DNA of 64,000 bases from a virus, in IMG/VR virus record IMGVR_UViG_3300004369_000004, positions 36,864-100,863 of that record; one strand, given 5' to 3'. Shown here in pieces: positions 37,224 to 57,105 of this stretch. The notes beneath the pieces were generated by a model, which did not search any database, was not told where the DNA came from, and worked only from the letters and a program-made list of their open reading frames with translations. The position numbers were made by a program, and so were the translations under genes. The first letter of the stretch is position 1; each line of letters starts with the position of its first letter.

Positions 37224-37616
37224 TTAGTTTATGTCTGTTGGAATTTGTGTTTTCTTAGTTGATTTTTTTAAAACAGAGGAAACATTTTCCATAAGACCTT
37301 CTTTGTCGGTCTTTAGCATGAACGTAATAGTGGCTTCGCTATTAGACGTTAATCTCAGCTTAGCATTTACAGTGTTTTTCTGTAAAAGCCCAAGCTTCCT
37401 AAGCTTAGTAATTGCATTTGAAATTACTTGAGTAGACGTATTGTTTCGAGAGGCTAACTCATCTTTAATGTTTTTATTAATAGTACCATAGTAAGAACTA
37501 TATCCTAAAACACTAGTATATAAGTCAGATAGCCTATATCCTGCGAATCTCAATAGTATATCAATGTAAGATTGATGCAATTCTACGCTTTCTTTATATT
37601 TTCTAGCTACTTTCAT
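37224..37616 (-). CDS. Winged-helix DNA-binding protein, candidate late regulator (130 aa)
   Basis: Residues about 50-82 form a helix-turn-helix with the layout NKNIKDELASRNNTSTQVIS, NAITKLRKLGLLQ, followed by a beta wing (AKLRLTSNSEATITFMLK). This is the MarR/replication-initiator style winged helix. It is the first gene after the strongest promoter of the window (37633-37662; leader of about 16 bases), at the head of the packaging/capsid transcript. That position suggests it regulates late transcription or its own promoter. It could instead be a packaging-site binding protein. Confidence 0.6.
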   Translation of the reverse strand: MKVARKYKESVELHQSYIDILLRFAGYRLSDLYTSVLGYSSYYGTINKNIKDELASRNNTSTQVISNAITKLRKLGLLQKNTVNAKLRLTSNSEATITFMLKTDKEGLMENVSSVLKKSTKKTQIPTDIN

Positions 37617-37632
37617 TTCAGTTGGTTTTTAG

Positions 37633-37662
37633 CAAATATACTAAGATAAAATAAAAAGTCAA
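37633..37662 (-). promoter_or_regulatory. Strong Bacteroides-type promoter for the packaging/capsid operon
   Basis: TTGAC (37662-37658) with 19 bases from TTG to a perfect TATATTTG (37640-37633) lies 16 bases ahead of the first ATG. The spacer is A/T only except for two bases. It faces left; a second, divergent TATATTTG box lies at 37743-37750 on the plus strand. Confidence 0.85.
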
Positions 37663-37742
37663 GTTAGAAGTTATAATATCTAAAGTTAATACATAATCTA
37701 AGAAAATTTTTAAGCTAAAAAGTTAAAAATATAAAATAATAC

Positions 37743-37750
37743 TATATTTG
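37743..37750 (+). promoter_or_regulatory. Plus-strand -7 box ahead of the structured RNA region
   Basis: A perfect TATATTTG lies on the plus strand, seven bases before the likely first base of the structured stretch. The -33 position is not TTG (it reads AGT at the 19-base spacing), so the promoter may be weak or need an activator such as the adjacent winged-helix protein. Confidence 0.45.
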
Positions 37751-37995
37751 CAGTGACACCGTCTCAAAAACGATCACCTGTGAGAGCGAAAGTTATTAGC
37801 AGGTCAGAAGTCGGATAGTAGTCTGCAGGGCTGTAATAGTGCTCAAACATAGTGGATGAGGTTTCTCCGATAGTGTCAAAAGATAGTATTTGAAATCTGC
37901 AGTGTTGCGACCTATAACAATAGGCAATGAGTGGACAGAACGCAAATTCAAGGGTAAAACCTTGTCTGGTTTAAAGACTGCTGCAGTATAAAACT
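37751..37995 (+). ncRNA. Candidate two-domain structured RNA of unknown class
   Basis: No ORF of credible length exists here, and base composition (about 43% G+C) is well above the flanking spacer. Domain 1 is closed by TGACAC (37754-37759) with GTGTCA (37873-37878), encloses TCGGA (37811-37815) with TCCGA (37866-37870), and holds hairpins such as ACCTG/CAGGT (37776-37780 with 37800-37804). Domain 2 is a three-way junction: outer GCAGT (37899-37903) with ACTGC (37977-37981), a branch TTGCG/CGCAA (37905-37909, 37941-37945) enclosing CCTAT-AACA-ATAGG (37911-37924), and a hairpin CAAGG-GTAAAA-CCTTG (37949-37964). I drew these helices by eye; strand is chosen from the TATATTTG box at 37743. I recognise no core of RNase P, tmRNA, 6S or group I/II introns. 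Confidence 0.5.
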
Positions 37996-38007
37996 ACTAG
38001 GAATCTT

Positions 38008-38044
38008 AAAAAACAAGCCCCCCAACGGAATTGTTAGAGGGCTT
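38008..38044 (-). terminator. Terminator of the fibre/lysis block
   Basis: On the minus strand AAGCCC (38044-38039), an inner AAC/GTT pairing and GGGCTT (38020-38015) form a hairpin followed by GTTTTTTAAG. It lies 32 bases after the stop of the holin-like gene and ends leftward transcription before it reaches the structured RNA region. Confidence 0.8.
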
Positions 38045-38076
38045 GGTGTATCTAGGTGATACTAGAAGATTTTTGA

Positions 38077-38322
38077 TTACTCTTCTTCTTTTTTGTTACC
38101 CCAGATCTTATCTAGAGAAGCAAGACCCAAAGCACCAAATGCCAAAGCTGCTACTGCGTTAATAAGCACAGGAGAAGGAGCAATATGCTCTGCTGTATAC
38201 TGATTAGCAAACAGAGTTACACATAGAGAAATACCAGCCAAAATGCCAATAAATCTTTTTGAAGAAGGGATGCCATTTTCGTCACGCAAAAGACCAGCTA
38301 CCCAGTTAATTACTTTTTTCAT
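38077..38322 (-). CDS. Holin-like membrane protein (81 aa)
   Basis: This 81-residue protein has two hydrophobic segments (about residues 24-42, FIGILAGISLCVTLFANQ; and 51-70, VLINAVAALAFGALGLASL), a short charged N-terminus and an acidic/basic C-terminal tail ending in KKEEE. Size and two-helix topology are those of class II-type holins, and it lies in the lysis/fibre transcript with membrane coiled-coil neighbours. It overlaps the 181-residue gene by 17 bases. It would open the inner membrane to let the amidase at 52400-53272 reach the wall, but that enzyme is encoded 14 kb away. Similar small proteins can also be membrane anchors. Confidence 0.6.
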   Translation of the reverse strand: MKKVINWVAGLLRDENGIPSSKRFIGILAGISLCVTLFANQYTAEHIAPSPVLINAVAALAFGALGLASLDKIWGNKKEEE

Positions 38323-53272: not shown

Positions 53273-53314
53273 AATTGTTGTATATTAGTAGTTTATTTTA
53301 AAAAGTTAATAATA

Positions 53315-57031: not shown

Positions 57032-57105
57032 GACTTCATAGCTCAATTGGATAGAGCAACTGCCTTCTAAGCAGTAGGTTACAGGTTCGATCCCTGTTGG
57101 AGTCA
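57032..57105 (+). tRNA. tRNA-Arg (anticodon UCU)
   Basis: The cloverleaf is complete: acceptor GACTTCA (57032-57038) with TGGAGTC (57098-57104, one G-U pair), D stem GCTC/GAGC, anticodon stem ACTGC/GCAGT with loop CTTCTAA and anticodon TCT, variable loop AGGTT, T stem ACAGG/CCTGT with loop TTCGATC, discriminator A. The 3' CCA is not encoded. It reads AGA codons, which are frequent in the A/T-rich genes here. The preceding terminator means it is probably processed from a read-through or separate transcript. Confidence 0.95.

Follow-up and report, generated by a model that had tools for sequence, protein, structure and literature searches.

The intergenic gap and its neighbors

The window analyzed here is a stretch of 64,000 nucleotides that forms part of a virus record of 100,863 bases, and its large terminase and portal genes (phrog_6681, phrog_6547) are crAss-like. 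Two gene blocks, both on the minus strand, are divided by a gap at 37,617-38,076, in which a stretch of ~240-300 nt (~37,752-38,050) is read as a structured RNA of the plus strand, i.e., on the strand opposite to both flanking blocks and converging on a gene for a protein of 81 aa (38077-38322). The first gene of the packaging block (37224-37616, minus strand) encodes a small protein that is conserved in 18 of the compared loci, resembles a winged-helix regulator by eye and has no PHROG match. Near position 53,300 the GC skew turns and the coding strand switches, which likely marks the junction of the phage's two arms. The only element that ARAGORN reported in the window was a tRNA-Arg at 57032; the program did not recognize the RNA gap as a tmRNA or tRNA, and in 14 member loci it reported no tmRNA.

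A first-pass annotation had described the stretch as free of open reading frames, and the distribution of stop codons agrees with this. Each forward frame contains 4-8 stops in the window, all six frames are interrupted across the core, as are almost all of them in relatives, and a 51-codon antisense frame of the window is broken by stops in relatives. The features of the gap are listed in Table 1.

Table 1. Features of the gap, with positions counted from the first base of the window
Feature	Position	Strand	Details
TATATTTG, Bacteroidota-type -7 promoter box (TAnnTTTG) of the RNA	37743-37750	+	Directly before P1
Packaging-block promoter-like site	37633-37662	-	TTGAC (37658-37662) and TATATTTG (37633-37640); outside the RNA
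Domain 1	37754-37878	+	P1 closes a junction with P2, P3 and P4; alignment A1
P1, 5' strand GACAC	37755-37759	+	Partner GTGTC 37873-37877
P2 hairpin	37760-37772	+	37760-37762 with 37770-37772
P3 hairpin	37776-37804	+	ACCTG 37776-37780 with CAGGT 37800-37804
P4	37811-37870	+	TCGGA 37811-37815 with TCCGA 37866-37870
P4 cap, extra stem		+	TCTGC 37822-37826 with GTGGA 37852-37856; GGGC 37828-37831 with GCTC 37841-37844
Domain 2	37879-37992	+	P5 closes P6-P7 and P8; alignment A2
P5, 5' strand CTGCAG	37897-37902	+	Partner CTGCAG 37981-37986
P6	37905-37945	+	TTGCG 37905-37909 with CGCAA 37941-37945
P7, enclosed by P6		+	CCTAT 37911-37915 with ATAGG 37920-37924
P8 hairpin CAAGG/CCTTG	37949-37964	+	82.8% of cells paired; weakest helix
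Hairpin AAGCCC/GGGCTT	38015-38044		Read from the sequence

Comparative evidence for a conserved fold

Folding of the 245 bases as a single sequence did no better than dinucleotide shuffles (z of -1.01 for the plus strand and -0.73 for the minus strand), so the structure was judged by comparison; the minimum-energy structure of the window differs from the conserved one. A terminase search of IMG/VR yielded 49 loci, in 32 of which the RNA stretch was recognizable by nhmmer; as in the window, the RNA and the terminase are on opposite strands in these 32. In an alignment of 19 sequences for domain 1 (A1), 99.4% of the cells fall in standard pairs, as compared to 23-47% when the partners are slid by 1-3 columns, and in an alignment of 17 sequences for domain 2 (A2) the corresponding values are 96.2% and 19-41%. 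Double-sided changes occur at 10 of 19 pairs in domain 1 and at 15 of 20 in domain 2. Domain 1 is 97.9% paired in a broad set (A5), and in 48 loci outside the training set (A6), an alignment that was fitted to the covariance model and hence leans towards it, its helices are 96.9% paired with 279 double-sided changes, as compared to 30-44% when slid; a contrast of this size would be hard to explain without structure. This evidence, which is comparative only but strong, shows that the gap encodes a real structured RNA, and the compensatory changes in relatives bear out the earlier proposal of a phage-encoded RNA with two structured domains.

Within domain 1, P1 reads GACAC/GUGUC in the window and GGCAC/GUGCC in the relative L003, and double-sided changes fall at 4 of its 5 pairs in the wider family. 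The closing helix had been given as TGACAC/GTGTCA, of which these five pairs stand, but the sixth (T37754-A37878) is not conserved. The inner helix TCGGA/TCCGA, which is P4, was correctly placed and covaries in relatives, and P2 and P3 are additional helices that the first reading had not named. P2 has three pairs in the window and four in most relatives, with double-sided changes at 3 of the 4, and P3 shows such changes at all of its pairs. The extra stem that caps P4 is found in the window, L002 and L039, in a shorter version in L044, and is missing from the other relatives. The highest sequence conservation is found in the P4 region, where AGAAGUYGGAU ... UUCUCCGAUAG flank P4, and the most conserved letters sit in the P3-P4 and P4-P1 junctions.

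Domain 2 is conserved in the window clade only, and a model of this domain misses the remoter members. The three-way junction that had been proposed here was exact for TTGCG/CGCAA, CCTAT/ATAGG and CAAGG/CCTTG, but slightly off for its outer helix, which is CTGCAG/CTGCAG and not GCAGT/ACTGC. Double-sided changes occur at all five pairs of P6 and at three of the five of P7, and P6 encloses a conserved GUGGACA.

Read on the plus strand, the AAGCCC/GGGCTT hairpin is probably the 3' end of the RNA, which would then reach ~38,050, beyond the coordinates first assigned to it. This placement rests on an AGGGG element of other members, the position of which falls in the hairpin of the window and matches its GGGC; AGGGG is found at +195 to +265 from the core in 27 of 67 members (~40%), as compared to 0-14% in control windows. 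On the minus strand the same hairpin resembles a terminator for the converging gene block. By eye, the P4 loop could plausibly pair with the 3' tail, but this was rejected, with 398 observed against a permuted mean of 394, i.e., not above permutation; in some relatives, moreover, part of the tail extends over a stop codon of the gene that converges on the RNA. A full-length model was dropped because the full alignment misplaces P3.

Distribution among phages and bacterial chromosomes

A search with the pattern AGAAGUYGGAU plus UUCUCCGAUAG returned 61 viral stretches, ~30 of them outside the earlier set, and the domain-1 covariance model listed all 30 of the pattern finds tested with it, 27 at E < 0.01. 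Twenty diverse members served to build a second model; when run on loci outside this build set, it gave 46 matches in a collection of additional viral stretches and the earlier loci, and it also matched Bacteroidota chromosomes. The carriers of the RNA include crAss-like phages, phages of an unrelated terminase type, Bacteroidota prophages, and islands with integrase and restriction genes. Matches to Microcystis in the genome scan were rejected, as they have model E-values > 1e-3 and lie in an open coding frame that was judged by eye to be Uma2-like. Direct comparison of the gap by blastn with named phages gave short A+T-rich matches only.

Among close phages the RNA, with or without an ORF of ~90 codons, appears to have been gained or lost at the same gap. 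The RNA is present together with this ORF, which lies upstream on the same strand, in L008, L019, L030 and L049. In three sister phages (L026, L032 and L034) a short gap takes the place of the RNA and the packaging promoter is retained; the terminases of these RNA-less sisters are 74-75% identical, and neither model matches anywhere in their records or in those of related sisters, some of which may be incomplete. The absence from close sister phages marks the RNA as accessory. At the sensitivity of the models, and with some records being fragments, it was not detected in crAss001, phi14:2, DAC15, p-crAssphage, Fpv3, phi17:2, phi4:1, Lbo-JY46 and three others. The small protein of ~90 aa just upstream of the RNA and on its strand (minus strand in L008:5703-5996, L049:5780-6046 and L044:5746-6015) is gained or lost with the RNA in part of the clade and has no accepted Pfam match. 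By terminase, L075 (PP438436.1) is the closest relative with a name (39% identity); its recorded host is the cyanobacterium Leptolyngbya, and a large array of tRNAs lies upstream of its terminase, where the window clade carries the RNA.

Cultured bacteria that carry the RNA include Belliella buryatensis 5C, Aquirufa aurantiipilula 15D-MOB and Flagellimonas algicola AsT0115, which makes tests of expression and deletion feasible. Chromosomal copies have tyrosine integrases, Sak4-like AAA_24 genes, DUF3871 genes and restriction systems as neighbors. With strict filters, one of 395 sampled Bacteroidota genomes scored, and this was the query's own, so the RNA is rare in Bacteroidota. One or two copies are present in most of the other genomes tested, and two rumen Bacteroidales assemblies (G023 and G024, with loci L179 and L164) have 12 and 14 scored copies. 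The rumen copies lie between genes in a shared layout, many with a TAACTTTG-type box and most followed by a G+C-rich hairpin; these multi-copy elements are at odds with a late-stage role in phages and may represent a different use of the fold. Five Bacteroidota islands (L188, L172, L197, L186 and L215) have Sak4-like AAA_24 genes, and in several of them the RNA is also surrounded by DUF3871, integrase or restriction-modification genes; these islands could possibly be phage satellites. Endonuclease genes lie directly downstream of the RNA in L197 (3707-4360, NUMOD1/I-HmuI-like) and in L205 (2151-2720, HNH with NUMOD4).

Position, orientation and promoter-like boxes

In 61 of the 62 viral loci with a terminase in view, the RNA lies 0.9-8.5 kb upstream of the terminase, a linkage to which the length of the stretches that the searches retrieved (4-15 kb) contributes in part. 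It is on the same strand as the terminase in 38 of the 62 loci and on the opposite strand in 24; the loci are not independent cases, as 22 of these 24 belong to the window clade, and L240 and L256 also have the opposite orientation. The terminase is of an unrelated family in L253, L256 and L267, two of which (L256 and L267) match phrog_38. L082 and L254 have no terminase within 9-13 kb downstream, in L246 the RNA precedes the small-terminase gene and in L240 it lies inside the head-gene region. The RNA lies between genes in the window and in those viral and island loci that were inspected; in L050, the 5' part of the RNA runs into the end of a small ORF, the product of which has a weak C-terminal match of the ExoX type. 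A sigma-70 family gene (L050:1105-1752) lies directly downstream of the RNA in this remote crAss-like phage. The next downstream gene runs the opposite way in the window clade, L151, L172 and L227, which argues against a target in cis in these, and it does so in several islands as well. No conserved protein partner that adjoins the RNA is common to the lineages compared.

A box on the plus strand ahead of the RNA had been pointed out, and it is found as described (Table 1). A box of the form TAnnTT[TC]G is aligned just before P1 in nearly all relatives of the window clade, and in 33 of 67 members TAnnTTTG occurs between 110 and 50 bases ahead of the conserved core, as compared to 3-11% in control windows, about half of the 67 being without a clear box at the expected distance. 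The view of the RNA as a neighbor of the main late promoter has to be given up: the plus-strand box is the RNA's own and the packaging block has a separate minus-strand site, which is conserved in relatives with and without the RNA. In three loci where RNA and terminase are co-oriented (L088, L114 and L134), further TAnnTTTG boxes follow the RNA, before or near the next gene.

What the RNA may do

We infer that this is a free-standing, independently transcribed and trans-acting structured RNA that is accessory and mobile, with a late-stage role as a first guess at its target, and we would place the probability of this reading at about 0.6. Host RNA polymerase would start the RNA at the box at the base of P1, and the transcript would fold into the conserved junction domain (P1-P4) and the variable second domain. 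The folded RNA would act in trans, probably as an RNA-protein complex or as a protein-binding RNA with a putative partner, and as an accessory gene it would move between phages and islands. Action in trans is suggested by the occurrence of both orientations and by the loci without a downstream gene in the same direction, and the guess of a late stage by the constant location of the RNA next to packaging genes, with either of the two terminase types. This stage could be packaging, late expression, or the piracy of either by islands; a role directed at a target in host defense or takeover would rank next.

The first-pass annotation had offered a regulatory RNA, a packaging RNA and a ribonucleoprotein scaffold, the last of which is a possible reading that is compatible with the evidence. 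A leader that acts in cis on the packaging operon (by antitermination or in the manner of a riboswitch) would suit the 38 of 62 loci in which the RNA lies upstream of the packaging genes and in their direction, but 24 of 62 are on the opposite strand, in the window the RNA converges on a minus-strand gene while the packaging block has its own promoter-like site, and the window clade and several islands have no downstream gene in the same direction, such that a leader is already contradicted for the window clade and very improbable elsewhere. In 61 of 62 loci the RNA adjoins packaging genes, it does so in phages of two terminase types that are unrelated and in both orientations, and this is what one might expect of a packaging-motor RNA that, like the phi29 pRNA, works on the portal or terminase, and its presence in integrase islands would then mean that the islands use their own copy to steal packaging. 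Sister phages with a terminase 74-75% identical nevertheless do without the RNA, though their records may be incomplete, and none is found at model sensitivity in crAss001, DAC15, phi14:2 or p-crAssphage, nor does it match an Rfam family; the clean absence from sisters disfavors an essential motor part in particular, and we regard this explanation as rather unlikely. A packaging-stage RNA that acts in trans, common to unrelated Bacteroidota phages and to restriction-carrying integrase islands that pirate their packaging, is a doubtful reading as well; if true, there would be a packaging RNA that does not belong to the phi29 group and a way of parasitizing phages that relies on RNA.

An RNA that serves as a decoy in counter-defense or host takeover, by binding and disabling a host protein, is somewhat unlikely, although it would account for the accessory presence or absence, for the RNA having its own promoter box and for the restriction systems that adjoin it in islands, and the conservation peak in the P3-P4 and P4-P1 junctions is of the kind expected of a binding core. 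The island restriction genes may be mere cargo, however, no defense target is indicated, and a decoy leaves the position beside the packaging block unexplained. The 12-14 model matches per genome in the two rumen Bacteroidales, together with the endonuclease genes that closely follow the RNA in L205 (HNH with NUMOD4) and L197 (NUMOD-bearing), call to mind a self-spreading RNA element of an intron-, HEARO- or MITE-like kind. Such an element seems improbable for an RNA that has no internal open frame and no exons to join, that has its own promoter box and a constant genomic address in phages, that lacks an Rfam match in loci of both kinds, and that occurs in 1-2 copies in most other genomes tested. 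A group I or II intron was rejected, since it would interrupt a gene and the RNA is intergenic in the window and the loci inspected. The divergence of leftward and rightward genes at the RNA in several lineages (L096, L128) would fit a replication-primer or origin RNA, but the GC-skew turn and strand switch of the window lie 15 kb off, near 53.3 kb, and sister phages lack the RNA, which makes this the least credible of the explanations considered. An RNA without a library match that has been kept by compensatory mutation across phages of two terminase types, prophages and islands implies that these have in common a task that has gone unnoticed. One of the phage groups concerned, the crAss-like phages, is among the most abundant human gut viruses and is otherwise known through its proteins.

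Comparison with known RNAs

At curated thresholds, the 4227 families of Rfam 15, which include GOLLD, ROOL, pRNA, tmRNA, group I and II introns, HEARO and 6S, gave only a tRNA elsewhere in the window, in agreement with the earlier opinion that the layout belongs to no known RNA class. In 18 other member loci Rfam 15 matched only tRNAs and DUF805b RNA, away from the element, and lowering the threshold for the window region, L188 and L179 brought up either no match or unrelated ones below threshold. Searches of the open-access literature on structured or non-coding RNA in crAss-like phages found no description of this RNA; an earlier description elsewhere is possible. We rate the RNA class as new, within the already known phenomenon of phage-borne structured RNAs of unknown function.

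HEARO and the IscB omega RNA are likewise structured, with dispersed copies in some genomes and homing-type endonuclease genes nearby, which for the present RNA applies to two loci; it differs from them in having no Rfam match and no IscB recognized nearby, and its two endonucleases are of NUMOD types. Phage phi29 is unrelated to the crAss-like phages. Its type of pRNA resembles the RNA described here as a phage RNA with a three-way junction, and linkage to packaging is seen here too, but the present RNA has no Rfam match and is accessory in its clade.

GOLLD and ROOL, which are likewise non-coding RNAs with a conserved structure, occur in phages and prophages and have no known function (PMC12286853), and the likeness to them is one of ecology and not homology. 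Their attributes of being phage-borne, conserved by covariation and dispensable (one GOLLD is dispensable for phage production; PMC7567579) have counterparts here in the covariation and in the absence from sister phages. They are ~600 to >800 nt long, as compared to ~240-300 nt for the RNA here, which has no Rfam match to either, and they are often found near tRNA islands, whereas the present RNA is found near packaging genes. Phage ICP1 and its satellite PLE each have a major non-coding RNA, that of ICP1 being located at the start of the lysis cluster (PMC7567579). No homology to these was detected and the host phylum differs; the likeness lies in their being abundant non-coding transcripts of a phage and of a satellite.
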